From an uncultured Magnetospirillum sp. (lineage in GTDB: Bacteria; Pseudomonadota; Alphaproteobacteria; Rhodospirillales; Magnetospirillaceae), in assembly GCF_903853455.1 (NCBI RefSeq), contig NZ_CAINTR010000008.1, forward strand, positions 62,001-126,000: 64,000 nt of DNA. The letters are read 5' to 3'. The notes beneath the pieces were generated by a model. The model was not told where the DNA came from and searched no databases. It saw nothing but the letters and a program-made list of their open reading frames with translations. Below are positions 31,094 to 57,798 of the stretch, in pieces; within the stretch, counting starts at the first letter, position 1, and every line of letters begins with the position of its first letter. The position numbers and the translations under genes were made by a program.

Positions 31094-31679
31094 GGGAATT
31101 CCAGTCGGAAAAGGCGAGGAAGGCACCGGACGGCAGCGGCTTGCCGGGATGATAGAGGTAGCGCTCGACCCCAGCCGGGAAATCGGGCTCGGCGAACACC
31201 TCTTCCAGGTCGTCAACGAAGGCGGCGCAGCGCAAGGCGCCGATGCGGGCGACCTTTTCCGTCCTCGTGGTGCAGAAATGCACGTTGGTCCGCTTCAGCC
31301 CGAAGCCGCTGTCGGCGAAAAAGCCCTGGACCTCCATCCAGGCCAAGGCGGCATGGCGCAGATTGATCCGGTCGGGATCGTAAGGCGCCGTCTCGGTCTT
31401 GTGGCTGATGATGGCGATGTCCCAGTCGCGCCGCTGGCACTCGGCCAGGAACTCGGCGACGCCCTCGATCAGGTCGGCCTCGGCCATCCGTCGGGCGTAG
31501 ACCTCGGCCTGCAGGCGCTGCCAAGCGATATCGGCCTCCGGCGACAGACGCACCAAGTCGCGCACCTGCTTCTTGGTGGTGGCACGGGCGGCACCGGGAA
31601 ACCCGGCCGCCACGGCGGCGTCGCGAAAGACGCGATCATAGCCGGCGATGGTGTTGTCGAAGTCGAGACCGATCAGCAC
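31062..31679 (-). CDS. HAD family hydrolase
   Basis: MLIGLDFDNTIAGYDRVF (DxDxT), AIISHKTET, CAAFVDDLEEVF. Confidence 0.85.
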   Translation of the reverse strand: MLIGLDFDNTIAGYDRVFRDAAVAAGFPGAARATTKKQVRDLVRLSPEADIAWQRLQAEVYARRMAEADLIEGVAEFLAECQRRDWDIAIISHKTETAPYDPDRINLRHAALAWMEVQGFFADSGFGLKRTNVHFCTTRTEKVARIGALRCAAFVDDLEEVFAEPDFPAGVERYLYHPGKPLPSGAFLAFSDWNSLGRHLFHRLG

Positions 31680-31744
31680 GGGGCAGGGTTCCTATTGCAA
31701 CATCAGCCGGATCTGGACGGATGCGAGGCCGGTCATGCCGCCCC

Positions 31745-35229: not shown

Positions 35230-36018
35230 TTAACCTCTGCCATAGGCCTTGGCGTTCCACAGGGGGTCGGTGGCCATGGTCTTGGTCACCCGCGCCAGAT
35301 CCTCGGCGTTGTCGACGGTGTCGGACACGATGGGGGTCACCAGCACCTTCATGGTGCGGCCCATCTCGATCACCCGGTTATAGTCGATGCCCTCGACCTC
35401 CTCGTTGTAGGTCATGCCGAACTCCAGGAACTCTTTCAGGAAGTCCGGCTTGAAGGCGATGATGGCGGTGTGCTTGTAGACCCGCTCGGGCAGCACCCCA
35501 TGCTTCTTGGGGCTGGGGATGGGCGCGCGCGACATGTAGATCAGGCCACCGTCGCTGTCGCGGAACAGCACCTTGACCCGGTTGAGGTCATGGAATTCCT
35601 CGATCAGGGTCAGCGGTTCGACCAGGGTGGAGGACTCCAGCGCCGGCTCGGCGGCATGCGCGGCGATGATCTGGTCCAGCATGGCGGGATGGACCAGCGG
35701 CTGGTCGCCCTGGACGTTGATCACCAGGTCGTACGGGCCGTCGGTCTCGGCGATCTTCTCATAGGCCCAGGCGATGCGGTCATTGCACATGTCGAATTCG
35801 GGGGTCACCACCACCTCGCCCCCCAAGGCGCGGATGTCGGCCGCCACCTCCTCGTTGGGGGTGGCGACCACCACCTTGGTCAGGGTCCGGCACAGGCGGG
35901 TGCGCAAGGCGCAGTGGCCGATCATGGACATGCCGTCGATTGCTTTAAGCGGCTTGCCGGGAAAGCGGCCGGAATTCATGCGGGCGGGGACGATGGCGAT
36001 AGTCCGAAGGGTGGTCAT
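35230..36018 (-). CDS. 3-deoxy-manno-octulosonate cytidylyltransferase (KdsB)-like
   Basis: TIAIVPARMNSGRFPGKPLKAIDGMSMIGH, DLVINVQGDQPLVHPAMLDQII, VYKHTAIIAFKPDFLKEFLEF. Confidence 0.85.
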   Translation of the reverse strand: MTTLRTIAIVPARMNSGRFPGKPLKAIDGMSMIGHCALRTRLCRTLTKVVVATPNEEVAADIRALGGEVVVTPEFDMCNDRIAWAYEKIAETDGPYDLVINVQGDQPLVHPAMLDQIIAAHAAEPALESSTLVEPLTLIEEFHDLNRVKVLFRDSDGGLIYMSRAPIPSPKKHGVLPERVYKHTAIIAFKPDFLKEFLEFGMTYNEEVEGIDYNRVIEMGRTMKVLVTPIVSDTVDNAEDLARVTKTMATDPLWNAKAYGRG

Positions 36019-41485: not shown

Positions 41486-42553
41486 TTAAGCCAACGGCGA
41501 ACCGGCCCCGAAGAACTCGTCGTAATCGCCGTTGGCCTTGGCGAAATCGTCGAGCCGGCCGATGTCGAGCCAGTATTCCCGGATGGGAAAGGCCACCACC
41601 TCCTCGCCGTCATCCATGACCTGTTGCAGCAAGGTGGTCATGTCGCACCGCTCGCCCGCCGTCAGGCGGCGCAGGGTGGCGGGCTCCAGCACATAGATGC
41701 CGGCGTTGATGAAATTGGTCAGCGACGGTTTTTCCTGCAGCCGGCTCACCCGCGAATGCTCGACCTCGACCACGCCATAGGGCACCTGGATGGTGTATTC
41801 GCGCACGCACATGGTGGCGGCGGCGCGATGCTCCTGATGGAAGTCGAGCAGGGCGCGGTAGTTGACCGAGGTCAGCACGTCGCCGTTCATCACCAGGACC
41901 GGATGCTCCGCCGGCTGCGGCAGAACCCCCAGGGCGCCGGCGGTGCCCAGCTTGCTGTCCTCGTGCAGGTAGGAAATCTCCAGGCCCAGGCGCGACCCGT
42001 CGCCGAAGGTCTCCTGGAACTTCTCCGCCATGTAGTTGACCGCCAGGAACACCCGCCGGAAGCCGAACCCCGCCAGTTGGACCAGGATGGTTTCCAGCAG
42101 CGGCCGCCCGCCCACCGGCAGCAGCGGCTTGGGGGTGGTGGCGGTCAGCGGCCGCAGCCGCTCGCCCAGTCCGCCCACCATGAGAACCACCGCGTTGGGC
42201 AGGTCGTCGGCGGCGACGAACTCGCTTTCGGTCTCCACCCCCACCACCACGCCGTCGTGGTTGACCAGCGGAATGTGGCGCAGCTTGCGCGACCGCATCA
42301 GCATCAGCCGCTCGTGGGCGGTGCTGGCGGTGGATGCGGTCAGCGGCTTGGGGTTCATGATCACCGTCACCGGGTCTTCCAGGCGCACGCCGCGCAGGAT
42401 GCCGCGACGGATGTCGCCGTCGGTGATGGTCCCCAGCAGGCGGCGCCCGTCATCCACCACCAGACAGATCTGGGCCGCCGACCGGTCGAGACTCTTGATC
42501 GCCTCGATGATGGGCAGGTCGGCGGCGATGAGGATGTCGGGCCAGTTCTTCAT
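41486..42553 (-). CDS. Nucleotidyltransferase with N-terminal CBS-domain pair
   Basis: CLVVDDGRRLLGTITDGDIRRGIL (CBS), VVLMVGGLGERLRPLTATTPKPLLPVGGRPLLETIL (NTP_transferase), PVLVMNGDVLTSVN. Confidence 0.93.
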   Translation of the reverse strand: MKNWPDILIAADLPIIEAIKSLDRSAAQICLVVDDGRRLLGTITDGDIRRGILRGVRLEDPVTVIMNPKPLTASTASTAHERLMLMRSRKLRHIPLVNHDGVVVGVETESEFVAADDLPNAVVLMVGGLGERLRPLTATTPKPLLPVGGRPLLETILVQLAGFGFRRVFLAVNYMAEKFQETFGDGSRLGLEISYLHEDSKLGTAGALGVLPQPAEHPVLVMNGDVLTSVNYRALLDFHQEHRAAATMCVREYTIQVPYGVVEVEHSRVSRLQEKPSLTNFINAGIYVLEPATLRRLTAGERCDMTTLLQQVMDDGEEVVAFPIREYWLDIGRLDDFAKANGDYDEFFGAGSPLA

Positions 42554-43572
42554 GATGGGGCGTTCAGTGTTCCGCTGGAGGAGTCGGTGATTACCGCATG
42601 GGCCGCCGCCAGAGTCCATGGACACGGATCGGCCCCCGCCGATTTCGGCAGGTCGTTGGTGTCGAGGCGCGGCAGGACGAAGCGGGTCGCCGGACCGGGT
42701 TCGGCCAGGGCCGTCCGGGTGGTCACCGCCGCCTTGAAGTCCAGCCTGGCCAGGATGGCCACGGTGTCCTCGGTGAACTCGCCATAGGGATAGCACATGC
42801 TGCGATAGGCCGGCGCCGTCCCCACCGCCGCCAGCAGCCGCAGCGAGGCGGCGATGTCCTTTTCCTGCTCGGCGGGGGTCAGGCGGCTCAGCCAGTAATG
42901 GGAGGCGCCGTGCGACCCCACATGCATGCCGGCCGACACCATCAGCCGCAATTGCTCCACCGAGACATACAGCCCCTCGGCGAAGGCGGTCTCGTCGGCC
43001 GAGACGTGGCGGGCGAACAGCTCGGCGGTCACCTGGGCGCGCAGCGCCTCGGGCAGGGCCTGCTGCAACATGCGTTTGACGTAGCTGACCTCCACCGGAT
43101 CGTAGCGGTTGGCGTGATAGTTGCCTTTACGAAACGAGTCCAGGCCGGGCAGGCCGAATTCGGCCGCCCGCTCGACGCAGGCGCGCTCGACGGCGGCGAC
43201 CAGATCGTCGGGCGCGGCCCCCGAGGCCAGGATGAAGTGGATCTTGTTGACGTCCAGCATGGCGCGCTCCAGCACCACCTTGGAGGGCGGGAAGAAGGCG
43301 CCGGTCAGGCCGCGCGCCGCCAGCCGGGGAAAAACATAAGTGTAGTGGTCGAGATAGCCGTCGTCGAAGGTCAGCAGCACCGCCTGGGGCGGCAATTCGC
43401 CGCGCCCGTCCAGGGCGTCGATCACCGCTTCCATGGAGACCGGGTTGTAATGGCGCGCCAGATAATCCAGCTGCTGGTCGAACAGCGCCAGGTCCAGGCC
43501 CTTGATGGCGGGAAAGGCGCTGCGCCCCAGCGGCCGCACATAGTGGTACATGACGATCGTCAGCGGCGTCAT
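42550..43572 (-). CDS. Polysaccharide deacetylase family protein
   Basis: TIVMYHYVRP, AVLLTFDDGYLDHYTYVFPRLAARGLTGAFF (TFDDG), MHVGSHGASHYWLSRL (HxxSH-like). Confidence 0.92.
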   Translation of the reverse strand: MTPLTIVMYHYVRPLGRSAFPAIKGLDLALFDQQLDYLARHYNPVSMEAVIDALDGRGELPPQAVLLTFDDGYLDHYTYVFPRLAARGLTGAFFPPSKVVLERAMLDVNKIHFILASGAAPDDLVAAVERACVERAAEFGLPGLDSFRKGNYHANRYDPVEVSYVKRMLQQALPEALRAQVTAELFARHVSADETAFAEGLYVSVEQLRLMVSAGMHVGSHGASHYWLSRLTPAEQEKDIAASLRLLAAVGTAPAYRSMCYPYGEFTEDTVAILARLDFKAAVTTRTALAEPGPATRFVLPRLDTNDLPKSAGADPCPWTLAAAHAVITDSSSGTLNAPS

Positions 43573-44918
43573 GATCCCATCCCCTGGACGCGGCGGATAA
43601 TGGGCAGCATGACGGAAACCGGCTTGGCCGCCGCCACTTTCACGAAGCTGCGGGTCTGGCGGGAATCGATGCGCGGCAACCGCTCCACCACCATGCGCAG
43701 GCGGGGAAACTTCCGCTCAAGGGCGGCGCACAGCCCCTCGCCAGCCTGCTTGGCCAGGGCGTATTCCAGCATGTCGGCCGGCGGCTTGGCCACCGCGACG
43801 CTGGAGGGATAGAACACCGTCAGCGGCGCGGCGGGCCGCAGCTTCGTCAGGCCGCGCATCAGCTCGTAGAAGCCATCGACATAGACCGCGGCGAAATCGG
43901 CGAAATCCTCTGCCTGATACGGCTCCAGCCGGCGGCGGAAGATGCGCGGACTGGCGAAGTAGTAGACCTGGCCGCCGCTCCAGCCCAGCCGGACCAGCTC
44001 GGCCAGTCCCGCCGCCGGATCGGTGACGTCGAGGCGCACCTGCCCGACCGACCGATGGCCGGTAACCACCGGCTCGGCCCCGCCAGCCGCCAGCAGCCGC
44101 GCCGTGGTCGCCCCCAGGCCGGAGCCGCCGCCCACCACCAGCGGCGTCTGACCGGCGAATTCCCCCGGCGCCACCAGACCGGCGACGTCCTCATCCTCTT
44201 CCGGGGCCTCGGGCGCGCCGGCCGAAGCCGCCACCGTGCCGGCAAGGCCGCCGCCCTCCACCGCCAGGGTCACCCGGCTGAAACGGCGGTCCAGCTGGGT
44301 CACCCGGTAACGCAAGGTCCCGTCGCTTTTCCCGGCGAACGTCACCGCCAGATCGGCGAAGACGCTGTGCAAGCCGGGGCATTCCATCCCCACCAGGGTG
44401 GACAGCCCCGCCAACCCGGCCAGCGCGGCTCCGCCCACCGCCCGGGCCAGCCTCGGGAAAGCCTCGGCCAGGGGTGCGGCGGCGGGCAGGGCCATCTCGC
44501 CGCCGCGGTCGGTCATTTCCGCCGGGGACAGAGCGCGGGGAGCGGATGGAAGCACGCCGGCCGGCGGCGGCTCCGCCTCGGCGGCAGGCGGCCCGAAGAC
44601 GAGATCGAGCCGCGCCATCACTTCGTCGCGGGCCAGGACCATCACCACCAGACCGCCCTCGGTCGGCGTCACCTTGGTCTCCAGCCGGTCGCCCAGCAGC
44701 ACCGGCCGCACGAAGGTGACCGCCAGCCGGGCCAGCCCGCGCCCGTCCACCACCTGATCCAGCAGTCCCAGCACCAGATGCATGCCGTGCACCACCACCC
44801 GACCGGGATAGACGGTGGCGGCCCAGTCCGGGTCCACATGCAGGGGGTTGCGATCCCCCGACAGGGCGGCGAAGCGGTGCTGATCCGCCAGGGTGAAGAC
44901 CCGCTCGGGCGTCGTCAT
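43569..44918 (-). CDS. Fusion: MaoC-like hydratase domain (N) + SDR-like domain (C)
   Basis: N-term FTLADQHRFAALSGDRNPLHVDPDWAATVYPGRVVVHGMHLVLGLLD (MaoC hot-dog motif), C-term TPLVVGGGSGLGATTARLLAAGGAEPVVTGHR and MLEYALAKQAGE (YxxxK). Confidence 0.85.
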   Translation of the reverse strand: MTTPERVFTLADQHRFAALSGDRNPLHVDPDWAATVYPGRVVVHGMHLVLGLLDQVVDGRGLARLAVTFVRPVLLGDRLETKVTPTEGGLVVMVLARDEVMARLDLVFGPPAAEAEPPPAGVLPSAPRALSPAEMTDRGGEMALPAAAPLAEAFPRLARAVGGAALAGLAGLSTLVGMECPGLHSVFADLAVTFAGKSDGTLRYRVTQLDRRFSRVTLAVEGGGLAGTVAASAGAPEAPEEDEDVAGLVAPGEFAGQTPLVVGGGSGLGATTARLLAAGGAEPVVTGHRSVGQVRLDVTDPAAGLAELVRLGWSGGQVYYFASPRIFRRRLEPYQAEDFADFAAVYVDGFYELMRGLTKLRPAAPLTVFYPSSVAVAKPPADMLEYALAKQAGEGLCAALERKFPRLRMVVERLPRIDSRQTRSFVKVAAAKPVSVMLPIIRRVQGMGS

Positions 44919-45970
44919 GCCCCCACCTCGTCCAGCATGTTGGGGCGATCCTGGTCGGCGTCGCCCTTGCAGATCACCCGCCGGCCGGCGGGGCCGCGCA
45001 GGCTGTAGAGCAGCGGCACGTTGCGGGGTTCGAACGGCTCGAAATGGCCGGGCAGGACCAGCCCCTCCACCGCAGCGCAATCCACCAGCCCTGCCGCCCG
45101 CAGCTCGTCGTCCAGGCCACAGCAATAGAAATCCAGGTATTCGGCGCCGGTGTCGCGCAACAACCCGGCCAAAGCCGGCCCCGCTCCCGCCAGGACCTCG
45201 GGGGCGCCGAGGAAATCCACCACCCGCAGGGCGACGGCCCCGTCATGGGCGCAGAGCCGGGTGACGACCAGACCGGCCAGACCGCCCCGGCGGGCGAGGA
45301 AAACCCGGTAATCGTAGAAGGGATGGGCGAGGTAGCGGCTCTCCACATAGGCCCGGGTCTTGAGCGGCACCTGCGGCGGCGCATCCAGACCCAGCCCCTC
45401 GGTGGCCGCCCGGAAATCGCCGCGCGACAGCGGGTGCAGCACCGTCTCGCCGGACGACGGCGGGGTGGCGAAGCCGGCCGGCAGACGTGCCAGGGCGTAA
45501 TCCCCGATGGCGGGGTTGACCAGACAGAACCGGGTCAGCAGACCGGTGGCGTAGCCCAGCGCGTCGTAGAGGCCCCTCGTGGCTGGATTGAGGCCGGTGG
45601 TGCCGATCCAGGCCTCGGGATGGGCCTTCTGCAACCACCGCAGCAACGCCAGACCCAGGCCGTGGGCGCGATCCGGCCGCACCTTCCAGGTGGTCAGCCA
45701 CAGCGTCTCGCGCCCGGCGCCGGTCAGGGTGGAATCGTAGCGGCTGAGCGGGATGTAGCCGAGCATGCCGACGATGCCCTCGGCCGCGTCGCGCGCCACC
45801 ACGAAATTGCAGCGGCCGGCTGCGGGTTCGGCATGCTGCCAGTCGAACAGGGGACGGCTGCGGGCCAGGACATGACGGGCCGACCAGTGGTCGCGGATGA
45901 ACCCCATCACCGCCTCGGCCTCGTCGGCCCGGCAGAAATCCAGCACCGTGGAGGCCTTGGCCGCGCTCAT
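44915..45970 (-). CDS. GNAT-fold acetyltransferase-like protein
   Basis: MGFIRDHWSARHVLARSRPLFDWQH, GMLGYIPLSRY, TTGLNPATRGLYDALGY. Confidence 0.65.
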   Translation of the reverse strand: MSAAKASTVLDFCRADEAEAVMGFIRDHWSARHVLARSRPLFDWQHAEPAAGRCNFVVARDAAEGIVGMLGYIPLSRYDSTLTGAGRETLWLTTWKVRPDRAHGLGLALLRWLQKAHPEAWIGTTGLNPATRGLYDALGYATGLLTRFCLVNPAIGDYALARLPAGFATPPSSGETVLHPLSRGDFRAATEGLGLDAPPQVPLKTRAYVESRYLAHPFYDYRVFLARRGGLAGLVVTRLCAHDGAVALRVVDFLGAPEVLAGAGPALAGLLRDTGAEYLDFYCCGLDDELRAAGLVDCAAVEGLVLPGHFEPFEPRNVPLLYSLRGPAGRRVICKGDADQDRPNMLDEVGA

Positions 45971-47616
45971 GGGCCGGACTGGATGGCGGCGGGTTTGGCG
46001 TAGGGCCGGGCCGCATCCCAGGTGAAGAGATTGGGCTCGGATTCGGCGAAGCCCGACTGGCGCCAGAACTCCAGGCAGGGATGGTTGCGCTCGGTGGGGA
46101 TGGCGCGGGCCAGAACCCGCTTGGCTCCGGCGGCCCGCGCCGCCTCCACCGCCAGATGCAGCATGTACGGCTCCACCTGCCGGCCCATGGCGCGGCAACT
46201 GAGCAGGTAGTCGGCGATCTCCAGGTCGTCGCCCCGCCGCTCCCAACTGATCAGGCCGGTGAGGCCGAGATCGCCGAAGCGGTCGGCGACGCCGAGCGTC
46301 ATCACCTGGCGGCCCTCGCCCTCCGCCACCCAGGCCAGCAGCTCGGTCTCGGTCAGGCGGCGGGTGCGCAGGTTCAACTGGTTGGTCTTGTTAAGCAGTT
46401 GGACCGCGCGCTTGAGGTTGACCTCGTCCAACGGCGCCGCTTCCACCCTGATCTCCAGCGAGGCCAGCCAGTCCTCCAGGGAGGTGAAGGCGGCGACGCT
46501 GTCTTTACGCTGGCGCTCCACCACATACATGCCGGTGCGGTTGCGGTCTTCGGCGGTGATGGCGGCCTGCTCGAAACAGTCCAGCCGGCGCAGGGCGTCG
46601 CCGTAGAGGGTCGGGTCCTTGGGCCAGTCGGGGACCAGCACCTCGGGCAGGGCTTCGGCGACCCGGCCGCGCTCGGCGGGGTTATCGTCGATGAACACCA
46701 CCGACGACAGCCCCAGATTGAGCTCGGCCACCAGATCGGCCACGTTGCGGGCCTTGTCGGTCCAGTTGATGCGCCAGCCAGCCAGATCGCCGCGGCGCAG
46801 CACCATGGCGGGATGGTTGTCGATGGCGTCCAGCGCCACCGCCTCGTCGTTCTTGCTGACCAGCGCCACTTGGATGCCGCGCCGGGTCAGCGCCTTCAGC
46901 GCCTTCTGGAAATCGACGAAGGCCTCGCCCACATGGTCGTGGCCGCCCAGGCGCAGCTTCCGCCAGCCGACCTCGCCCACCACGCCCCCCCACATCGTGT
47001 CGTCCAGGTCCACCACCACCAGCTTGCGGCTTTGGCCCAGAGCGCCGCGCAGCGCCGCCTTGACATCGCGCGCCGCCGCCTGGCAGACCGGTTCGGTGAA
47101 TGGGCATTTGAGGGCGAACCAATGCTTGGCCGAGCGGGGACTCCCGTGGCCCGCCTCCAGCCAGCGGCCGGCATCCAGCAGATGGACGCCCCTGGCCCCG
47201 GCCAGCGCCTCGGCCAGCCGCGCGTTCATGCGGGCCAGCACATAGGCGGGACCCATCGGACTCCAGTCCAGCATCCCCAGGCCGCGGTCGTTGCGCGACG
47301 GCACCAGGGTGGCGACCAGCACCAGCGTCTTGCTGTCGGCAAAGCGGCGGATCAGTTGGGCGAAGGCCTCGGTCTCGGCCAGGAGGGCGTCCAGGTCGGC
47401 CGCCTCGCCGTCCAGCAGGCCGGCATAGCGCGGCGACACCCCCTCGGGCCGCGCCCACACCACCCCGACCCCGGCGGATGAGGGCGATTGCAGCGCCTGG
47501 AACAACTGGCCGAACGGGGCCTTGGCGACGGTGCAGACCGGCGTGGTCTGGTCGGCGGCAAGATAACGGCCGAAAACGTCGGTGTTGAAATCCGAGACCA
47601 GCTGGATTTCCGTCAT
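45967..47616 (-). CDS. HAD-IIIC family phosphatase / FkbH-like protein
   Basis: KLVVVDLDDTMWGGVVGEVGW (DxDxTxWGG), LVSKNDEAVALDAIDNHPAMVLR, VVFIDDNPAERGRVAEALP, C-terminal GNAT-like region. Confidence 0.94.
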   Translation of the reverse strand: MTEIQLVSDFNTDVFGRYLAADQTTPVCTVAKAPFGQLFQALQSPSSAGVGVVWARPEGVSPRYAGLLDGEAADLDALLAETEAFAQLIRRFADSKTLVLVATLVPSRNDRGLGMLDWSPMGPAYVLARMNARLAEALAGARGVHLLDAGRWLEAGHGSPRSAKHWFALKCPFTEPVCQAAARDVKAALRGALGQSRKLVVVDLDDTMWGGVVGEVGWRKLRLGGHDHVGEAFVDFQKALKALTRRGIQVALVSKNDEAVALDAIDNHPAMVLRRGDLAGWRINWTDKARNVADLVAELNLGLSSVVFIDDNPAERGRVAEALPEVLVPDWPKDPTLYGDALRRLDCFEQAAITAEDRNRTGMYVVERQRKDSVAAFTSLEDWLASLEIRVEAAPLDEVNLKRAVQLLNKTNQLNLRTRRLTETELLAWVAEGEGRQVMTLGVADRFGDLGLTGLISWERRGDDLEIADYLLSCRAMGRQVEPYMLHLAVEAARAAGAKRVLARAIPTERNHPCLEFWRQSGFAESEPNLFTWDAARPYAKPAAIQSGP

Positions 47617-47906
47617 GCGGCAAGCCGCTCCAAAATCAGGTCGGCCAGGGCGGCGGGGCTGCGCAGCCCGCCGGCGTCCTCGCCGAAATCGCTGTCGTCC
47701 AGCAGGCCGATCTCGGCACCGGCCAGAGTGGAAACCCGGCTCTCCACCGCCAGGATCAGCGTCACCAGCGCCAGCGAATCCAGGGCGCCGCCCTCGCCCG
47801 CCAGCAGCAGGTCGGGGGTCTTGGCCAGTTGCTCGGTCTCGGAGCGCAGGCCGTTCACCACGTCGATCGCCTGATAAACGATGTCCAGCGCGGTCGCCCT
47901 ATCCAT
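47613..47906 (-). CDS. Acyl carrier protein-like
   Basis: About 97 aa helical protein with LLLAGEGGALDSLALVTLILAVESRV (LDSL phosphopantetheine-site motif); ATGA overlap with FkbH-like gene. Confidence 0.8.
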   Translation of the reverse strand: MDRATALDIVYQAIDVVNGLRSETEQLAKTPDLLLAGEGGALDSLALVTLILAVESRVSTLAGAEIGLLDDSDFGEDAGGLRSPAALADLILERLAA

Positions 47907-47955
47907 AGACAGCCTCAAGCAGTCGAGAGTGAAATTTCCGGCCCGAATGGGGCGC

Positions 47956-47984
47956 TTATAGCCCGTTCACCGGATGAACGTCAA
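47956..47984 (-). promoter_or_regulatory. Promoter with embedded palindromic operator (site B) for the ACP/FkbH operon
   Basis: Minus strand TTGACG-TTCATCCGGTGAACGGG-CTATAA (17-bp spacer); GTTCA-N5-TGAAC at 47965-47979. Confidence 0.65.
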
Positions 47985-48875: not shown

Positions 48876-50672
48876 CTATTGGTTCAGCACCCGCCAAACC
48901 GCCGCCGAAGCGTTGGGAATGCGGCTGAAATCGCACATATGGTCGAGGATGGCGTCGCGGTCGGGCACCTCGCCCGCCGCCAGCGCCGCCGCCAGCGCCT
49001 CGGCGTCGGCGTAAAGCGGCACCGGTCCCATCACCGCCGGATCGACGCTGTTGGGCTGCGGCACCAGGGCGTAATAGGGCTTGCCCGCCGCCAGGGTCTC
49101 CACCAGCGAACCGGAATCCGCCGGCCCGATCACCAGATCGGCCCAGACCATCTGCTGCGGCACCGAGCCGCCGGTGACGATCTCCAGGCCCAGGTCGAAT
49201 TCGCGGTCGAGGGCGGCCCAGGCCGCCGGCCCGAAGGCGGGATGGACCTTGAGGCGGATCTCCTGGTAGCCCAGCCGGCGCAGCATGCGGGTGACGTCGA
49301 CGATGTTGGAATAGGTGGTGCCGCGCAGCATGCGGAAATTGTAGATGGAACTGGTGCCGGGCAGCAGCAGCACCCGCCCCCGGCCCACCGGCGGCAGGCT
49401 CAGCGCCGCCGATCCCCGCCGCACCGGGTCGAGGCCGGGATAGCCGACGCGGGCGGTGGGCAGCTTTGAGCCGATGCGGCGCAGCCAGTCCTCCTGCGAC
49501 GGCCCCCAGGACAGCAGCCGCGACAGTTTGGGCGGGCCGCAACGGTCGCCGCAGCGGATGTCGTAGGCGCAGTCATGCACGAACATGCCGTTCAGCAGCT
49601 CGTCGGCGGGAATGCCGGCGGCATGGGCGGCCTCGACGATCAGCCGGCCCGAAGTGTTGGTGGCGTCGCCCACCACCACCCGGGCCACCCGATGGCGGGT
49701 CAGCAGGGCGCGGTAGGACTTGGCCTCGGCGGCGAAGTCCAGCAGCCGGCCGTTGGTGAGGATCTTCTCCTCCACATGGGCGCGCCGCGCGGCCTCCACC
49801 GGCGCGGCCGGCGGATGAGTCCGCCAATGCTCCCTTAAGTCTGCCGCCCCGGCCTCCAGCCGCCGCACCTCCTCCCTGGTGAGGGACAGACGCGGCAGGC
49901 TGGCCAGGGTGGCGCCGCGCCGCAGGCAATCCCGCAGGAAGGACAGGGACTTGGGCGAACGCTGGGCGATCAGCACGGTTCCCGCCGGCCCGCCCGGCCA
50001 GGACTCCAGCAACCCTTGCTCCATCAACGGGTTGAGGAAGAACAGCACGCCGCCGGTCTTGCGCCGGAACGGCCGCAGCAGGCGAAACGCCAGATCGGTG
50101 AGGTCGGCCAGCAGATTGCGCAGAACCGCCTTGGCCCCCTTGGGACGCAGCGGCGCGCCGATCCCCAGCACGTCGTGGAAATGGCGGATGTCGTCGGGCG
50201 GGTCGAGGCGATCCACCACCGTCAGCCCATGACTCGCCGCCAGGGCCTGGACCAGGATGCGCTTCTGGGTGTCGCCGACCTGGCCGTATTCGCCGCGCAG
50301 GTCGTAGAGCACCAGTTCCTTGGGGGCGTAAACGCGACAGAAGCCGTCCAGCGCATGCCACAGCCGCTGGAATCCCAGCACCGACAGCTCCACCTCGCGA
50401 TTGAGCGCCTTGGCGGTGGACATGCCATCCAGCAGACCGACCTCGCCGCCGGCCTCGATCATCCATTCGCCGTGGCGCAGCAGCACGTCGGCGGGCGGGT
50501 CGTAATCGCCCAACATGGCGTCCACATGGCGGACGGCGACGCCCTCCCGCTCCAACTGGCGGCAGGTCAGCCAATCGGTACTCACCACCAGCGCGCCGGG
50601 GCCGGCATTACGGGCGGCGTCGAGATGGCGGGGATGGCTGATCAGCACCAGCCGGGTGACGGGCTCGGCCAT
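48876..50672 (-). CDS. Putative GT-B-like surface-glycan protein of unknown function
   Basis: C-terminal RLGYQEIRLKVHPAFG...VWADLVIGPADSGSLVETLAAGKPYYALVPQPNS resembles GT-B C-terminal half. Confidence 0.5.
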   Translation of the reverse strand: MAEPVTRLVLISHPRHLDAARNAGPGALVVSTDWLTCRQLEREGVAVRHVDAMLGDYDPPADVLLRHGEWMIEAGGEVGLLDGMSTAKALNREVELSVLGFQRLWHALDGFCRVYAPKELVLYDLRGEYGQVGDTQKRILVQALAASHGLTVVDRLDPPDDIRHFHDVLGIGAPLRPKGAKAVLRNLLADLTDLAFRLLRPFRRKTGGVLFFLNPLMEQGLLESWPGGPAGTVLIAQRSPKSLSFLRDCLRRGATLASLPRLSLTREEVRRLEAGAADLREHWRTHPPAAPVEAARRAHVEEKILTNGRLLDFAAEAKSYRALLTRHRVARVVVGDATNTSGRLIVEAAHAAGIPADELLNGMFVHDCAYDIRCGDRCGPPKLSRLLSWGPSQEDWLRRIGSKLPTARVGYPGLDPVRRGSAALSLPPVGRGRVLLLPGTSSIYNFRMLRGTTYSNIVDVTRMLRRLGYQEIRLKVHPAFGPAAWAALDREFDLGLEIVTGGSVPQQMVWADLVIGPADSGSLVETLAAGKPYYALVPQPNSVDPAVMGPVPLYADAEALAAALAAGEVPDRDAILDHMCDFSRIPNASAAVWRVLNQ

Positions 50673-51361
50673 CAGCCCCGATCCGCCAGCAGCAGCTCGG
50701 CCAGCCGGAAGTCCAGGACGCTGTCGATGTCCACCGAACGTTCGGCCGGCATGACATAGCCGACCGTGCCCTCGGCCATGAAGGTCAGCGACTGACGGAA
50801 CCAGGGAATCTTGGCGACGAACACCGCCCCGTTGGCGGCGAAGGCGGTGGGCAGGTCCTGACGCCGGGTGACGCCGCCGGACTCCAGCAGCCGCGACAGC
50901 CGGCCCTGCTCGTCCATGCGGTACATCCAGTAGGGCGACTTGGCCGCCTCGGTCACCCCGACGCAGGCGGGAGCGTCGGCGGCGACGCAGGCGGCCAGCG
51001 CCGCTTCCAGGTCCTCGGCCAGCCGCAGCGGCGAGGTGGGCTGCAGCAGCACCAGCAGGTCGAACGCCTCGTCCAGGGCGTCCAGGGCATGGATCACCAC
51101 CGGCGCCGAGGGGGTGTCGTCGCGGGCCAGCTCGGGCGGACGCACGAAGGGAGCCTCGCAGCCAGCCGCCACCGCCGCCGCGATGATGGCGGGGTCGTCG
51201 GACGAGATCACCACCCGGTCGATAGAGGGCGCCGCCAGGGCCTGCTCCACGCTCCAGGCCACCAGCGGCTTGCCACCCAGCGGCCGGATGTTCTTGCCCG
51301 GCAGCCCCTTGGAGCCGCCGCGCGCGGTGATCAGGGCGAGAACCTTGCGTCCGGCGATCAT
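50672..51361 (-). CDS. legF: Acylneuraminate cytidylyltransferase (CMP-nonulosonate synthetase, LegF/NeuA-like)
   Basis: VLALITARGGSKGLPGKNIRPLGGKPLVAWSVEQAL, LLVLLQPTSPLRLAEDLEAAL, SVDIDSVLDFRLAE. Confidence 0.88.
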   Translation of the reverse strand: MIAGRKVLALITARGGSKGLPGKNIRPLGGKPLVAWSVEQALAAPSIDRVVISSDDPAIIAAAVAAGCEAPFVRPPELARDDTPSAPVVIHALDALDEAFDLLVLLQPTSPLRLAEDLEAALAACVAADAPACVGVTEAAKSPYWMYRMDEQGRLSRLLESGGVTRRQDLPTAFAANGAVFVAKIPWFRQSLTFMAEGTVGYVMPAERSVDIDSVLDFRLAELLLADRG

Positions 51362-51368
51362 AATTCTC

Positions 51369-52037
51369 TCATTTCCGGCACGTGATCAGCCATTCGCGCA
51401 CCTCCCTGGTGCGGTTGCGGTCGGTGCGGATGACGTAATCCAGGGCGATGTCGGGGAAGACGCCGTAGAGGCCGGGGATCTCCTCCTCGGCGGTCAGGCG
51501 GATCAGGCCATATCCCTTGTTGAACGGGCCGTCGGGGATTTCCAGGAAGGTGTTGGGCTCGCCCTCCATCCTGCGGCCGGTGGCCTCGCCGCTGGTGCCG
51601 GTCATGAAGGCCTTGGAGAACAGCAGCCCGCCGGGTTTGAGCACCCGGTGGGCCTCGGCGACGATGCGGCGCGAATCCGCCAGCGTGTTGGCGTAGATGC
51701 ATTCGATGTCCAGCACGCAGTCGAAGCTGGCATCGGCGTAGGGCAGCTCCATGGCGTCGCCCTGGTCGAGGCGCGCCGCCAATCCCCGCTCGGCCAGCCG
51801 CTCGGCGGCGCGGTCCAGCCCGACCCGGCTGCCGTCCAACCCGGTGGCGTCGAAACCCTCGCCGGCCAGGAACACCATGTTGGCGCCGGCGCCGCAGCCG
51901 ATTTCGAGGAATTTCACCGCCTTGCGATCAGGGGCACCGAAATAGGTGCGCCCGATGAACCGCACCAGCTCCTCCGGGGGATATTTCCCCCAGTCCTTGG
52001 CGCTGAATACGTCGTCCCAGCCAGGATTCCACATCAT
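51369..52037 (-). CDS. Class I SAM-dependent methyltransferase
   Basis: VKFLEIGCGAGANMVFLAGEGFDATGLDGSRVGLDRA, FDCVLDIECIYAN, EAHRVLKPGGLLFSKAFM. Confidence 0.92.
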   Translation of the reverse strand: MMWNPGWDDVFSAKDWGKYPPEELVRFIGRTYFGAPDRKAVKFLEIGCGAGANMVFLAGEGFDATGLDGSRVGLDRAAERLAERGLAARLDQGDAMELPYADASFDCVLDIECIYANTLADSRRIVAEAHRVLKPGGLLFSKAFMTGTSGEATGRRMEGEPNTFLEIPDGPFNKGYGLIRLTAEEEIPGLYGVFPDIALDYVIRTDRNRTREVREWLITCRK

Positions 52038-53080
52038 CGATACCTGTATTTGAGAAAGCGTCCGCCGAACCGTTCGACCAGATCGGGATGGTCTTGCGCC
52101 CAGCCGGCGCAGACCGAATCATAGGCGGCACGGTCGATCATCACCTTGCCGAAGCGGAAGGTGGTCCGCTCGGGCGAATAGCCCGCCTTGAAGCGCAGCA
52201 GGCTGTCGTCGGCAGCGGCGGTGCGGCCGCCGCCATAATGCAGCCGCTCACGCCCACCGCCCAGCAGGTCCATGGTGACGGCGTGGCGCAGCAGGTTGTT
52301 GGGGCCGAACGCCGTGTAGGCCTTCAGCGACGACGACAGATGGTAATGGGCCCAGCGCGCCGACAGCAGGATCAAGGCGCCGCCCAGCACTTCCCCCTCC
52401 CGCTCGGCCAGGTAAACCCGCCACGAATTCGCCCCCAGGCTGGGGATGGCGCGGAAATAGTCGTCGCCGAAGAAGTAATCCTCGTGGGCATCCAACTCGC
52501 GCATATGGGTCTCGTAGAGACGGGCGAAGACCTCCAGCGCCGCCTGATCGGCGCGCCCGGTCACCACCACCCCGGCCTGCTCGGCCTTACGCACCTTGCG
52601 CCGGGTCTCGGAGGCATAACCGGCCAGCACGGTGTCGCGGTCCTTGGACAGGGTCAGGGCCACGGTCTGGCGGTCGTCGATCACCGTCACCGCCCCATGC
52701 GCCGCCCAGCGGTGGTTGTCCAGCAGCGGGTGAAAGCGGATGAAGCCGCAGACGACGCCACGGGCGCGGCAATGCGCCACCAGTGCCTCCCACGCCGCCG
52801 CCAGAAACGCCGCGTCGTCGCTGGTGGACAGCGGCCCGCCATAGCCGTAGGCGGTCTCGAAGTCGAACAGCGGCCGGTCGGACTGGCTTTCGATCTCCCG
52901 CACCAGCCAGGGCAGCAGGAAGGTCTCGCCGCCCTGCTCGAACACGAACAGTTCGTTGACGTCGCCCGGCCGGGCGTAGAGGGCGGCGTAGGCGGGACGG
53001 AAATAGACGTCGGCGAGACCGCCCAATCCATCGAGCAGGCGGTTCCAGGACCCGTGATCTTGGATCAGGCGGACGCTCAC
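52034..53080 (-). CDS. FemAB/GNAT-like peptidyl or acyl transferase
   Basis: GTG start; CGFIRFHPLLDNH, ALTLSKDRDTVLAGYASETRRKVRKAEQAGVVV, GGALILLSARWAHYHLSSS, LHYGGGRTAAADDSLLRFKAGYSPE (FemAB pattern). Confidence 0.85.
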   Translation of the reverse strand: MSVRLIQDHGSWNRLLDGLGGLADVYFRPAYAALYARPGDVNELFVFEQGGETFLLPWLVREIESQSDRPLFDFETAYGYGGPLSTSDDAAFLAAAWEALVAHCRARGVVCGFIRFHPLLDNHRWAAHGAVTVIDDRQTVALTLSKDRDTVLAGYASETRRKVRKAEQAGVVVTGRADQAALEVFARLYETHMRELDAHEDYFFGDDYFRAIPSLGANSWRVYLAEREGEVLGGALILLSARWAHYHLSSSLKAYTAFGPNNLLRHAVTMDLLGGGRERLHYGGGRTAAADDSLLRFKAGYSPERTTFRFGKVMIDRAAYDSVCAGWAQDHPDLVERFGGRFLKYRYR

Positions 53081-54111
53081 CGCAGGTCGGCCCATTGCAG
53101 CGGCTCGTCCTCGGCCAGGGCACGGTTGACGGTGAAGCCGGCCAGCCGGTCCAGGTCTTCGGGCTCGATGCCGCCGCCGGGGCGCTTGCAGGTCAGCATC
53201 TCAGGCCGCAGCACGGTGCCGGCGGCGATGGGTACCAGGGCCACCACGCCGCGGCGGATGCCGTTCATGTTGGCGATCTCGGCCTTGGTCGGGCGCTTGA
53301 CGCCGTCGCCCAGCATGGCCTCGATGCGGCGGATGGAGGCCACATAGGCAGCCAGCCCGGCCGGGTCCAGCGAGGCCTGATGGTCGGGACCGGGCAGCGA
53401 GCGGTCGAGGGTGAAGTGCTTTTCCACGATCGCCGCCCCCATGGCCACGGCGGCCAGCGAGGCTTCCGAGCCCAGGGAATGGTCGGACAGGCCCACCGGC
53501 AGGCCGAAGGCATGGCCCAGCGTCACCATGGCGCGCAGGTTGATCTGGTCGTCGGGGGCGGGATATTCCGAAGTGCAGTGCAGCAGGGCCAACGGCCCGA
53601 CGCCGCCTTTGCGCAGCGCCGCCACCGCCTTTTCCACCTCGCCCAGGGTGGACAGGCCGGTGGACAGGATGGCGGGACGGCCGGTACGGCCGATAGCCTC
53701 CAGGTACTGAAGATGGGTGACCTCGGTGGAGCCGATCTTGACGATGGGCATGTCCAGCTCGCCCACCAGGAAGGCCAGGCTGTCGAAGCCGTCGGGGGTG
53801 GACAGGAACAGGATGTTCCGGCTCTCGGCATGGGCCTTCAGCTCGCGGAACGCCGGATAGGGCAGGGCCAGCCGGCAGGACAGCTCGTAGCGGCTTTCCG
53901 CCGCGTCGGTGGTGGTCTCCAGATAGTCCACCTTGTAGGCGAACTTGCCGGTGATCTCGCCCGGTCGCCAGGTCTGGAACTTGACCGCGTCGGCCTTGGC
54001 CTCGGCGGCCACGTCGATCAACCGCTTGGCGCGGGCGATGTCGCCGTCATGGTTGACGCCGGCTTCGGCGATGATGAAGGCACGGCCGGCAGTGGCATAG
54101 GGCAGGGTCAT
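53077..54111 (-). CDS. legI: N-acetylneuraminate/legionaminate synthase (NeuB/LegI family)
   Basis: FIIAEAGVNHDGDIARAKRLIDVAAEAKADAVKFQTW, PIVKIGSTEVTHLQYLEAIGRTGRPAILSTG, LLHCTSEYPAPDDQINLRAM, GLSDHSLG, EKHFTLDRSLPGPDHQASL, C-terminal SAF. Confidence 0.94.
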   Translation of the reverse strand: MTLPYATAGRAFIIAEAGVNHDGDIARAKRLIDVAAEAKADAVKFQTWRPGEITGKFAYKVDYLETTTDAAESRYELSCRLALPYPAFRELKAHAESRNILFLSTPDGFDSLAFLVGELDMPIVKIGSTEVTHLQYLEAIGRTGRPAILSTGLSTLGEVEKAVAALRKGGVGPLALLHCTSEYPAPDDQINLRAMVTLGHAFGLPVGLSDHSLGSEASLAAVAMGAAIVEKHFTLDRSLPGPDHQASLDPAGLAAYVASIRRIEAMLGDGVKRPTKAEIANMNGIRRGVVALVPIAAGTVLRPEMLTCKRPGGGIEPEDLDRLAGFTVNRALAEDEPLQWADLR

Positions 54112-55277
54112 GGCGAGGGGGTATCCACGAAGCTCTTGCGGATCAGACCGTCGAGCGGATGGGTGGCGAGGATGTCGCGGATGCGCTCCGAGGCATGGCC
54201 GTCGCCGAAGGGGTTGACCAGCCCGGCCAGTCCGGCGCGAAACCCGGGCGACAGCAGCCGGCGCAGAGCGGCGGCGATGGCGGCGGCTTCGGTGGGGCAG
54301 TCGATGATGGAGGCGGCGCGCAACCGGCCTTTCTGGCGGTCGCCGATATTGACGGTGCCGATGCCGAAGCTGGGCACCTCGATCAGGCCGGAGGAGGAAT
54401 TGCCGACCACGCCGGAGACCAGCGCCAGGGCCGACAGATAGCCCTGATGGCCCAGCGACTTGACCGCCACGGCACGGCCAGGGCGCGTCGCCACGAAAGC
54501 CTCCACGGCGGCGGCGATGGCGCGGCCGCCGGCATCGGCATTGACCCCGGTGAAGATCAGCCGGACGTCGTCCTCGATCCCGGCCAGGGCGGCCAGCAGC
54601 TCGGCCACCTGACGCTCGGGGGCCAGGGCCGACAGGGTCTCGGGATGGAAGGTGACCAGCAGCGAGCGCTGGCCCAGGTCCAGCCCCAGCCGCGCCTCCA
54701 GCTCGGCGCGCGGCAGACGCTGGCCGTCGCGGATGGCGTCCAGCCCGGTGGAGCCCACCACGAACACCCGCTCCGGCGCCTCGCCCATCTGGACGATGCG
54801 GCGGCCATAGGCCTCGATGGCGGTGAAATGGAGGTGGGCCAGCTTGGTGATGGCGTGGCGGATGGCATCGTCCACCGCGCCTTCGGTCAACTGTCCGCCG
54901 GCGATATGGGCCAACGGCAGGCGCAGCGCCATGGCGGCGCTGGCGGCACCCAGCATCTCGTAGCGGTCGCCGAACACCAGGACGAGATCGGGCGTGAGGC
55001 GGGCGAAGGCCTCGGCCAGGCCCATGGTGGCCAGGGCCAGCGACTTGGCCATGCCGAGGCCGCTGTCGGAGGCCAGCACGATCTCCACCCGCTCGGCGAT
55101 GGCCACGCCCTCGGCCTCGATCTCGGTGACCGTCATGCCGAATTCGGGAGCAAGGTGAGTGCCGGTGACCACCACCAGCGGCTCGGTCCGCCCGTCCTCG
55201 GCCAGCAGCCGGATCAGCCGCGACAGCAGGCCGTATTCGGCCCGCGACCCGGTGACAATGGCGATCCGGCGCTTCAT
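54108..55277 (-). CDS. legG: UDP-N-acetylglucosamine 2-epimerase, hydrolysing type (NeuC/LegG-like)
   Basis: IAIVTGSRAEYGLLSRLIRLL, LVLVFGDRYEMLGAASAAMALRLPLAHIAGGQLTEGAVDDAIRHAITKLAHLHF, VVGNSSSGLIEVPSFGIGTVNIGDRQKGRLRA. Confidence 0.94.
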   Translation of the reverse strand: MKRRIAIVTGSRAEYGLLSRLIRLLAEDGRTEPLVVVTGTHLAPEFGMTVTEIEAEGVAIAERVEIVLASDSGLGMAKSLALATMGLAEAFARLTPDLVLVFGDRYEMLGAASAAMALRLPLAHIAGGQLTEGAVDDAIRHAITKLAHLHFTAIEAYGRRIVQMGEAPERVFVVGSTGLDAIRDGQRLPRAELEARLGLDLGQRSLLVTFHPETLSALAPERQVAELLAALAGIEDDVRLIFTGVNADAGGRAIAAAVEAFVATRPGRAVAVKSLGHQGYLSALALVSGVVGNSSSGLIEVPSFGIGTVNIGDRQKGRLRAASIIDCPTEAAAIAAALRRLLSPGFRAGLAGLVNPFGDGHASERIRDILATHPLDGLIRKSFVDTPSP

Positions 55278-56632
55278 TCGAACGTCACGATACCGCGCAG
55301 GTCCATGCGCTGGTCCAGATAGCGGTGCTTGCCGATGCGGGTGCGCGGAATGTCGTCCACCAGCTGCACCTCGATGTGGAATCCGGCCAGGATGGCGCCG
55401 ATGCGCCGTTCCAGCAGGGCCTTGACCACCGCCGGATCGTCAGCGGCCAGTTCGGCCTCGGGCTGGATCAGGATGGTCAGCGCGCCGGCCTGCTCCTGGA
55501 TCACCCGGAACTCGCGGATGCCCTTCCAGTCCATGTCGTTGTAGTTGAACACCGCCGGGGCCAGCGGGGTGGGATGGCCGGCGGCGTCGATGACGAAGTC
55601 CTGGAAGCGGCCCTCGACCCCTTTCAGGATCTTGTAATGGCGACCGCAGGGGCAGTCCTGGCTGTCACCGAGATAGCCGATGTCGCCGGTGCGGTAGCGG
55701 ATCAGCGGCATGGTGGGATTGTTGAAGCCGGTCACCACCATCTCGCCGCGCCCGCCCGGCTCGGTGACGTCGCGGCCCTGCTCGTCCAGCAGTTCCACGA
55801 TCCCCACCTGGGGCAGGAAGTGCAGGGCGTCGGAGTGCTGGCAGGGAAAGCCGGCGGCGCAGGCCTCGGTGTGGCCGAAGATGTTGATCAGCCGGGCCTG
55901 GAAGGCGCGCTCGATCATGGTGCGCTGGCCGTCGGTCAGATATTCGCCGTCGCAGGCGATGGTGCGGATGGGCCGGATCTCCAGCCCGTCCTGCAGGATG
56001 TACTTGGCCAGCGGCAGGATGGAGGACGGCCGCGTGTGGATATAGCGCGGCGCGAAGGCGTTGATCTCGGCCACATAGGCCGGGGCGGTCTCGGCGGTGA
56101 TGTGGTAGCACGACATCACCAGCTTGCGGCCGTCCTCCACCCGCCAGTAGCGGTTCTCGGCCAGGATCTCGGGGGCGAGCTTGTCGCCGTAGAGCCGCAC
56201 CGAGCGCCAGTTGAAGACGTCGAGGCCAAACGTCTCCATGTAGTGGTTGGTGCAGGCCTTGTCGCGGGCCAGGAAGTCGTCGTCGTACCAGATGGTCAAG
56301 GGCGTGCCGGTGCTGCCGCCGGTGGTGCGGTGGCGCAAAGTGGCGCGGTCCGCGTTGTCGGCCAGGAAGGCGTCGGGATCGGCCTGGATCGCCCGCTTGT
56401 CGATGATGGGAAAGCGCTTGAGGTCGGCCAGGGTGACGATGTCGTCGGGTCCGAACCCGGCCGCCGCCATGGCGCGGCCATAGGCCGGCACCCTGGCATG
56501 GGCGTGGCGCACCAGCCGCCGCAGGGAATTCAGCTGGTACTCGTCCTGCTGCCGGCGCGACCAGAACTGGCTCTGCTCGAGGAAGATCCGGCGTTCGACG
56601 AAGATCGGATTGGAAAAAGGATCGGCGCTCAC
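55274..56632 (-). CDS. Phenylacetate-CoA ligase-like AMP-dependent ligase (CapK-like)
   Basis: GTG start; RHRTTGGSTGTPLTIWYDDD (AMP-binding loop), NIFGHTEACAAGFPC, LIRYRTGDIGYLG, CPCGRHYKILKGVEGR. Confidence 0.92.
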   Translation of the reverse strand: MSADPFSNPIFVERRIFLEQSQFWSRRQQDEYQLNSLRRLVRHAHARVPAYGRAMAAAGFGPDDIVTLADLKRFPIIDKRAIQADPDAFLADNADRATLRHRTTGGSTGTPLTIWYDDDFLARDKACTNHYMETFGLDVFNWRSVRLYGDKLAPEILAENRYWRVEDGRKLVMSCYHITAETAPAYVAEINAFAPRYIHTRPSSILPLAKYILQDGLEIRPIRTIACDGEYLTDGQRTMIERAFQARLINIFGHTEACAAGFPCQHSDALHFLPQVGIVELLDEQGRDVTEPGGRGEMVVTGFNNPTMPLIRYRTGDIGYLGDSQDCPCGRHYKILKGVEGRFQDFVIDAAGHPTPLAPAVFNYNDMDWKGIREFRVIQEQAGALTILIQPEAELAADDPAVVKALLERRIGAILAGFHIEVQLVDDIPRTRIGKHRYLDQRMDLRGIVTFE

Positions 56633-57798
56633 CGTTCGCCCTCCCCGGCAAGGCGTGGACTGGACGGAATGTTGATCAGCCGGGCGGCGACGCTGTCGGT
56701 CACCTTCAACTCCATGCGTGGGCAGTCGGCGTACATGGGCAGGTGGTGCATGGGAGTCCAGGCCGGCCGGCATTGCAGGCCGCGCTGGTTGGACAGGGTC
56801 AGCACCGGCTCCAGCAGGGCTTCGTTGCCCGGCTCCAGCAGCGCCACGTTGAGCCAGTAATTGCTGCGGCCGAAATCAGTCTCGACGAAGGCGCGGATGC
56901 CGGCCAGCGGCGCGAAGGCGGCATGATAGCGCCCGGCCAGCAACCGCTTGCGCTCGAGGAAACCGGGCAGCCGCTCCAACTGGGCGCAGCCGATGGCGGC
57001 GTTGACGTTGGGCAGGCGGTAGTTGTAGCCCACCATGTCGTGGCGGAATTCGAACGGATGGGGCTGCTTGGCGGTGGTGGTGAGGTGCTTGGCCCGCTTG
57101 GCCAGCTCGGCGTCGTTGGTGAGGATGGCGCCGCCGCCGCCGGTGGTGACGATCTTGTTGCCGTTGAAGCTGAGCGACGCCAGCTTGCCGTGATTACCGG
57201 TGTGGCGACCCTTGTAGGTGCTGCCCAGGCTTTCGGCGGCGTCCTCCACCAGCGGCAGGCCGAAGCGCTCGCACACCGCCACCAGCGGATCCAGATCCAC
57301 CGGATGGCCGAAGGTGTGCATGCAGACCACGGCGCGGATCGGCCGCCCGGTCAGGCGGTTGACGACACAGCCGTCGCCGGGACGGGCGATGTCGGCCAGA
57401 TAGTCCGCCAGCCGGGCCGGGTCGAGGCCCAGGGTCCGCTCCTCGATCTCGGCGAAATGGGGCGTGGCGCCGCAATAGGCCACGGCGTTGGCGGTGGCGA
57501 CGAAGGTCAGCGACGGGATGATCACCTCGTCGCCGGAACGCACCCCGGTCAGCAGCAGGCCGGCATGCAGGGCGGCGGTGCCGTTGACCACCGCAACCGC
57601 GAAGCCGGCGCCGGTAAACTCGGCCAGCATCTTTTCGAAGCGGTCCACATAGGCGCCTACGGTGGAGACCCATTCGGTGTCGAGGCATTCCTTGACATAG
57701 GTCCACTCGTTGCCGGCGATCTCGGGGGCGTGCAGCAGCGCCTTGCCGCCGGTGACGCTTTCGATGGCGGCGACCACCTGTTCGGCGGTAAGCGTCAT
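56629..57798 (-). CDS. legC: LegC family DegT/DnrJ/EryC1 aminotransferase
   Basis: LHAPEIAGNEWTYVKECLDTEWVSTVGAYVDRFE, VNGTAALHAGLLLTGVRSGDEVIIPSLTFVATANAVAYCGATPHF, LSFNGNKIVTTGGGGAILTND (PLP Lys). Confidence 0.94.
   Translation of the reverse strand: MTLTAEQVVAAIESVTGGKALLHAPEIAGNEWTYVKECLDTEWVSTVGAYVDRFEKMLAEFTGAGFAVAVVNGTAALHAGLLLTGVRSGDEVIIPSLTFVATANAVAYCGATPHFAEIEERTLGLDPARLADYLADIARPGDGCVVNRLTGRPIRAVVCMHTFGHPVDLDPLVAVCERFGLPLVEDAAESLGSTYKGRHTGNHGKLASLSFNGNKIVTTGGGGAILTNDAELAKRAKHLTTTAKQPHPFEFRHDMVGYNYRLPNVNAAIGCAQLERLPGFLERKRLLAGRYHAAFAPLAGIRAFVETDFGRSNYWLNVALLEPGNEALLEPVLTLSNQRGLQCRPAWTPMHHLPMYADCPRMELKVTDSVAARLINIPSSPRLAGEGER

Follow-up and report, generated by a model that had tools for sequence, protein, structure and literature searches.

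FkbH-type proteins yield glyceryl bound to an acyl carrier protein (ACP) in known pathways (PMC7489565), in a published pathway table the product entered for FkbH is D-lactate-ACP (PMC7901079), and OocJ holds a DH-MT-FkbH-ACP module (PMC4552970). N-lactyl groups are known on Rha4N and Fuc3N (PMC9912281), and N-lactyl sugars in general, N5-(R)-lactyl-pseudaminic acid among them, are known chemically; in the literature searched we found no biosynthetic route to such sugars and no paper describing a module of the FkbH-MaoC-SDR type, SDR being a short-chain dehydrogenase/reductase. In the present study we analysed a stretch of 64,000 nucleotides from an uncultured Magnetospirillum sp. (contig NZ_CAINTR010000008.1, positions 62,001 to 126,000; hereafter the window), in which five overlapping genes encode an ACP-like protein, an FkbH-type protein, a putative GNAT-family acyltransferase, a MaoC-SDR fusion and a polysaccharide-deacetylase-family protein, within a locus for a nonulosonic acid (NulO). 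We propose that this cassette may make an ACP-bound three-carbon (C3) acyl donor from glycolysis and re-acylate a legionaminic-type NulO, the expected product carrying one N-lactyl group, a proposal whose chances of being right we judge to be evenly balanced.

The cassette and its coupling to FkbH

The five genes run without gaps on the minus strand from 47906 down to 42550, in the order ACP, FkbH, GNAT, MaoC-SDR and PF01522 deacetylase, and all four junctions between them are ATGA start/stop overlaps, with a fifth such overlap joining the deacetylase to a PtmE-like gene (41486-42553, minus strand; CBS domain PF00571 and sugar-1-phosphate nucleotidyltransferase domain PF00483). The original prediction had placed an ACP, FkbH, GNAT and MaoC-SDR group with ATGA overlaps at 43569-47906, followed by a deacetylase, and this arrangement is confirmed on the minus strand; the four genes occupy that range, and the deacetylase (42550-43572) falls outside it.

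The FkbH-type protein of the HAD family (45967-47616, minus strand; 549 aa), a predicted glyceryl transferase/phosphatase with a DLDDT motif, matches TIGR01686 at 267.3 bits against a curated cut-off of 146.65. The DxDxT, SKN and DDNxxER motifs are invariant in the family alignment, and the HAD region matches the solved BF1531 structure (3slr), solved relatives covering the N-terminal and HAD parts only. The preceding gene (47613-47906, minus strand; 97 aa, ATG start) encodes a putative ACP of an atypical subtype with an insertion of ~11 residues after helix II; it has no Pfam match and a weak DltC match only, and its LDSLALV attachment site is conserved across the subtype. The same subtype adjoins FkbH-GNAT in three other loci (L025, L127 and L130), and matches to it adjoin FkbH in L159, L161, L162 and L163. 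The calls for the ACP, GNAT and SDR are based on motifs, homologues and folds, as their Pfam scores in the window proteins are below cut-off or none.

The MaoC-SDR protein (43569-44918, minus strand; 449 aa) carries a MaoC hydratase/dehydratase domain scoring 51.5 bits for PF01575 (cut-off 27), a second hotdog, in which a PGLHS-type stretch is conserved, and an SDR reductase domain, the last at 18 bits, below the Pfam cut-off. In an alignment of 81 proteins the MaoC hotdog shows its hydratase motif, with the catalytic D22 and H27 kept in all 80 ungapped rows; the SDR residues S372, Y386 and K390 are kept in 81, 80 and 81 of the 81 proteins respectively, and the Gly-rich nucleotide motif (G263-G269) is also retained. 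The AlphaFold model (predicted local distance difference test, pLDDT, 91) matches a MaoC-like double hotdog in its first half and an SDR in its second (Z ~21-22), so that the protein as modelled joins a double hotdog to an SDR.

Searched with the MaoC-SDR protein as the sole query, 149 related genomes yielded 6 more that hold it, each of them having FkbH and a carrier protein in the vicinity. Scanning 84,980 species yielded 80 loci, which are partly non-independent as eleven are from Methylobacterium and as L066 and L076, under two phylum labels, are nearly the same sequence and were counted as one origin. An FkbH gene lies within 10 kb of the MaoC-SDR homologue in 60 of the 80 loci, the median gap being 295 bp; an ACP or carrier protein is near in 47. 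Apart from one unassigned locus, the 60 linked loci fall in 11 named phyla. The only case from Actinomycetota, L077 (titled Mycobacterium sp. 1245111.1), has neighbours that look non-mycobacterial and is a probable contamination, and the lead to mycobacterial N-lactyl sugars was dropped. FkbH is found elsewhere in 16 of the remaining 20 genomes, whose MaoC-SDR loci are in many cases on short contigs, giving 76 of 80 with FkbH against a baseline of 33 in 337 alphaproteobacteria; both other MaoC-SDR genomes among these 337 have FkbH a few kb away. The MaoC-SDR protein therefore belongs to FkbH chemistry, on which it appears to depend almost strictly. Searching plasmids with the same protein gave zero matches.

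The reverse sample, 34 alphaproteobacterial loci picked by FkbH alone, holds MaoC near FkbH in 11 loci, nine of them with an SDR too; the chance of 11 in 34 is ~2e-10 at the MaoC density of the Magnetospirillum genome itself (7 in 5.2 Mb). The window-type fusion is present in L115 and L123, shorter MaoC-SDR fusions lie beside FkbH in L125, L129, L140 and L142, a MaoC-SDR-ACP fusion in L134, and MaoC and SDR as separate neighbouring genes in L133 and L135. This variety of architectures beside FkbH, one of them fused to a carrier, constitutes strong evidence that the substrate of MaoC and SDR is what FkbH leaves on the ACP. About fifteen loci of this sample have an FkbH-ACP-MBOAT arrangement, and in L123, L127 and L130 FkbH is accompanied by GNAT and deacetylase; on a quick FkbH tree with long branches the GNAT/deacetylase label requires about four changes, and thus we do not claim a single origin. 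A second module of the window's own genome (L017:10690-14977, contig C8, ~23-27 kb left of the window) consists of ACP, standalone MaoC, radical SAM and FkbH genes without SDR, its FkbH being 37% identical to that of the window over the main part. Taken together, the FkbH-coupled MaoC-SDR module is real and apparently undescribed, recurs across phyla and is modular.

The nonulosonic acid context and the putative transfer unit

Upstream on the same strand the window contains a PseF/LegF-type CMP-NulO cytidylyltransferase (50672-51361; PF02348; TIGR03584 at 157.7 bits, below the cut-off of 205.7), a NeuB-family NulO synthase (53077-54111; PF03102 and SAF; TIGR03569 at 393.6 bits, just below 399.65), a hydrolysing UDP-sugar 2-epimerase of the NeuC/LegG type (54108-55277; TIGR03568 at 436.7 bits, above 235.9) and a LegC-family aminotransferase (56629-57798; TIGR04181 at 510 bits, above 420). 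With LegC, NeuC/LegG, NeuB/LegI and CMP transferase all in the window, the locus is of the legionaminic type; FkbI/FkbK-type dehydrogenases were not seen in the operon, which sets it apart from the tetronate and methoxymalonyl FkbH pathways. The PtmE-like protein is matched at 4.7e-112 by a protein of L127 that lies between LegH and the CMP transferase. Because the module sits inside this LegC/NeuC/NeuB/CMP-transferase/PtmE locus, the acceptor is most likely a NulO or its precursor.

The putative GNAT-family protein (44915-45970, minus strand; 351 aa) has a weak PF00583 match of 18 bits, while the homologue from L165, at 26 bits, exceeds the cut-off of 20.7. It carries a C-terminal GDxDQDRPN motif, was placed in family alignments, and has homologues 36-55% identical to it that adjoin FkbH in other genomes. 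It is possibly a tandem GNAT. The predicted model, built from 3 sequences, is of low confidence at pLDDT 50, and its fold matches (N-myristoyltransferase and tandem GNATs) were set aside and not used as evidence. The deacetylase (minus strand; 340 aa) matches PF01522 at 74.8 bits (cut-off 23.1) with D70, D71, H221 and H225 of the metal and catalytic motifs invariant in its alignment, and no signal peptide was seen in its sequence.

Strong GNAT homologues share the C-terminal DQDRPN motif and mostly adjoin FkbH, in L025 (Gemmatimonadota), L103, L127, L130, L159, L161, L162 and L163; all five cassette genes are contiguous in L025, L103, L159 and L163 and gathered in L123. In genomes that lack FkbH altogether (L164, L165 and L168), more distant GNATs have a deacetylase and NulO genes as neighbours. 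Among these, L165 comes from a species of the window's genus and corresponds to the same NulO locus (PtmE 70%, GalE 79% and LegC 65% identical); it lacks the FkbH set, and adjoining NeuB is a fusion of an ACP with an LnmK-family acyltransferase/decarboxylase (L165:13834-14910), which suggests a propionyl rather than a lactyl on the same sugar. Since GNAT and deacetylase are present in FkbH-free NulO loci and ACP-LnmK replaces the FkbH set in L165, the GNAT-deacetylase pair has the appearance of a transfer unit able to accept different ACP-borne acyl groups, with the FkbH set as one donor.

Two further Leg loci (L166:7655-13847 and L167:5664-11896) hold LegH, PtmE, methyltransferase, ACP, MaoC, GNAT and FkbH genes without SDR or deacetylase, and adjoin HisF/HisH-like genes. 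A methylmalonyl-CoA-epimerase/glyoxalase-like gene lies between FkbH and GNAT in L127 (L127:9116-9514), and its product may epimerise glyceryl-ACP at C2. The NulO operon of the window also includes, on the minus strand, a B12-dependent radical SAM protein related to the KedN5-type C-methyltransferase (57795-59816), a PaaK-like AMP ligase (55274-56632) and a FemAB-like acyl/aminoacyl transferase (52034-53095), the last being another candidate N-acyltransferase. Farther away, a split transketolase pair and an HldE-like kinase/nucleotidyltransferase (28336-33277, minus strand) and a KdsB-like cytidylyltransferase (35230-36018) may belong to a second branch, for an ulosonate or a heptose. A promoter-like TTGACG-18-TATAAG (47955-47984, minus strand) immediately before the ACP gene was read from the sequence and is weak evidence; the consensus promoter scan listed nothing by its rule, missing this element because it does not end in T. 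Its spacer contains a perfect 5+5 dyad, GTTCA-TCCGG-TGAAC (47965-47979).

Proposed chemistry and its alternatives

Comparative genomics supports the existence of the module and its link with FkbH and with NulO genes; the chemistry is what we infer. FkbH would dephosphorylate 1,3-bisphosphoglycerate and load D-glyceryl onto the ACP, as is known for the family. The MaoC/double-hotdog part would then eliminate the 3-hydroxyl to give enolpyruvyl/pyruvyl-ACP, and the SDR part would reduce pyruvyl-ACP to lactyl-ACP, the only β-hydroxyl of glyceryl being the primary one, so that elimination by MaoC gives enolpyruvyl (pyruvyl) and reduction by the SDR gives lactyl. The loading of D-lactyl in bryostatin biosynthesis would be a precedent for such a unit. 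The PF01522 enzyme would strip the N-acetyl group from the NulO or its precursor, and the GNAT would pass lactyl from the ACP to the freed amine, with a legionaminic-type acid carrying one N-lactyl, most simply at N5, as the expected product. The N5 of a NulO normally bears an acetyl inherited from UDP-GlcNAc; in a sugar with (R)-lactyl on N5 the nitrogen thus arrives acetylated, and a deacetylase together with a new acyl transfer is just what such a sugar would need. The original prediction, in which an acyl group assembled on the ACP is transferred to an amine that the deacetylase uncovers on a sugar, is partly supported and right in outline: it fits all the findings, the module recurs across phyla and GNAT with deacetylase recurs in NulO loci, but it left the acyl group vague and missed the NulO context.

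No ketosynthase was found in the window and ketosynthase III (KSIII) was detected in only 14 of the 80 MaoC-SDR loci, mostly Methylobacterium, so the unit should stay C3; lactyl is the best predicted acyl group, because MaoC and SDR accompany FkbH even without a ketosynthase. These KSIII loci, and the fact that MaoC and SDR are the classical (R)-3-hydroxyacyl enzymes, would also suit a MaoC-SDR protein that draws on the CoA or fatty acid pool to produce a 3-hydroxyacyl group such as 3-hydroxybutyryl, of the kind known from viosamine- and anthrose-type sugars, FkbH making a separate decoration. We find this highly improbable in view of the 76 of 80 MaoC-SDR genomes that hold FkbH, of the majority of loci without detected KSIII, and of the carriers, the operon having one ACP, beside FkbH, and the MaoC-SDR-ACP fusion of L134 adjoining FkbH. 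As a separate observation, ten Methylobacterium loci (L029, L033, L035, L039, L041, L043, L050, L051, L059 and L069) combine MaoC-SDR, FkbH and KSIII, most adding carrier proteins and a PglD-like acyltransferase, and there the C3 unit may be elongated.

Several points weigh against the lactyl-NulO proposal. MaoC enzymes usually use 3-hydroxyacyl thioesters without a 2-hydroxyl, which makes the elimination step unusual for the family. FkbH, GNAT and deacetylase genes occur without MaoC-SDR in L127, L130 and L161, and MaoC occurs without SDR beside FkbH/ACP in L017 and L112 and beside FkbH, ACP and GNAT in L166, L167 and L169, where the pathway would stop at pyruvyl; with such variants, glyceryl and pyruvyl products must exist elsewhere, or the lactyl reading is wrong. 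Furthermore, the five-gene cassettes of L159 and L163 show no NulO genes within ~10 kb, the GNAT model is poor, and the GNAT could instead acylate the 4-amine made by LegC.

The three loci lacking MaoC-SDR would suit glyceryl itself as the transferred group, with FkbH-ACP feeding the GNAT directly and MaoC-SDR having another or a proofreading role, as would the di-O-methylglyceric acid on Campylobacter pseudaminic acid, with the FkbH gene cj1302 in the locus (PMC3068675, PMC7099621), and the known N-glyceryl-Qui4N (PMC9912281). Such a route fails, however, to explain the near-obligate link between FkbH and MaoC-SDR and the conserved active sites of both MaoC and SDR, and we regard it as improbable. 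The five loci with SDR-less MaoC point rather to an end product that is pyruvyl or a different C3 group, oxidised or unsaturated, MaoC dehydrating glyceryl-ACP and the SDR working in the other direction or on another carbon, and glyceryl-ACP is indeed oxidised in FkbK/FkbI-type pathways (PMC7489565). To this possibility too we attach a low probability, as the window SDR retains Ser-Tyr-Lys and the nucleotide motif and sugar pyruvyl amides were not met in the literature searched.

The alternative acceptor is compatible with any acyl group: the GNAT would replace LegH and acylate the LegC-made 4-amine (the future N7), while the deacetylase would serve another sugar. The window yielded no LegH/PglD-like protein, as against L127, L165, L166 and L167, which have one, and on this ground the GNAT might act on the 4-amine of the nucleotide sugar. 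Yet LegH and GNAT stand side by side in these same four loci, and the GNAT accompanies the deacetylase in L127, L130, L161, L164, L165 and L168, so that we consider this variant rather unlikely.

Returning to lactyl as the predicted group, we tentatively extend the proposal, thinking the extension somewhat more apt to fail than to hold: FkbH, ACP, MaoC and SDR would form an undescribed, widespread lactyl-ACP synthase that converts 1,3-bisphosphoglycerate to a lactyl donor without free lactate or CoA, GNAT and deacetylase (N-acylation) or MBOAT (O-acylation) would place lactyl on surface sugars, and this would be the missing route to N-lactyl NulOs.

Significance and comparison with known systems

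NulO and glycan decorations decide how phages and hosts see flagella, capsules and lipopolysaccharide. The FkbH-MaoC-SDR set offers a concrete, testable route that would tie central glycolysis to the decoration of surface sugars via a carrier protein and, if true, would explain the origin of rare lactate-bearing sugars; lactyl would then be one more acyl group that can be predicted from a genome. From the modular swaps (FkbH/MaoC-SDR versus ACP-LnmK, and GNAT with deacetylase versus MBOAT), annotators might be able to forecast which acyl groups decorate NulOs and other glycans. The new points are the near-obligate coupling of MaoC-SDR to FkbH, the modular donor and transfer units, and a putative NulO target with a specific lactyl prediction.

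The Nod factor set NodB/NodA/NodF/NodG matches the predicted parts of the cassette, namely a PF01522 N-deacetylase, an acyltransferase using acyl-ACP, a special ACP and an SDR reductase; it differs in that a fatty acyl group is built with the ketosynthase NodE and placed on a chitooligosaccharide, whereas the window has a predicted FkbH C3 unit and a NulO. The FkbH glyceryl-ACP pathways of tetronates, methoxymalonyl-ACP, the FR901464 starter and suomilide/varlaxin load glyceryl from 1,3-bisphosphoglycerate by FkbH and ACP and tailor it on the ACP (PMC7489565, PMC10143770), as is predicted for the cassette, but their unit ends up in a polyketide or peptide after tailoring by FabH, dehydrogenases or O-methyltransferase, in contrast to the MaoC and SDR and the predicted sugar transfer of the window. 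The di-O-methylglyceryl-pseudaminic acid of Campylobacter jejuni likewise joins a glycerate-derived group on a NulO to an FkbH gene, cj1302, in the locus; it is Cj1295-dependent, and the consulted excerpts of these reports describe no MaoC-SDR or GNAT-deacetylase cassette (PMC3068675, PMC7099621). The capsule of Psychrobacter marincola, with Pse5(R-Lac)7Ac, carries an N-lactyl on a NulO at N5; the consulted excerpt of that report names no genes for it (PMC7281560). Finally, the PseH and LegH N-acetyltransferases N-acylate an amino sugar in the same pathways, as is predicted for the window GNAT; they use acetyl-CoA, whereas this GNAT exceeds them in length, carries a DQDRPN motif of its own and has an ACP and a deacetylase encoded alongside it.

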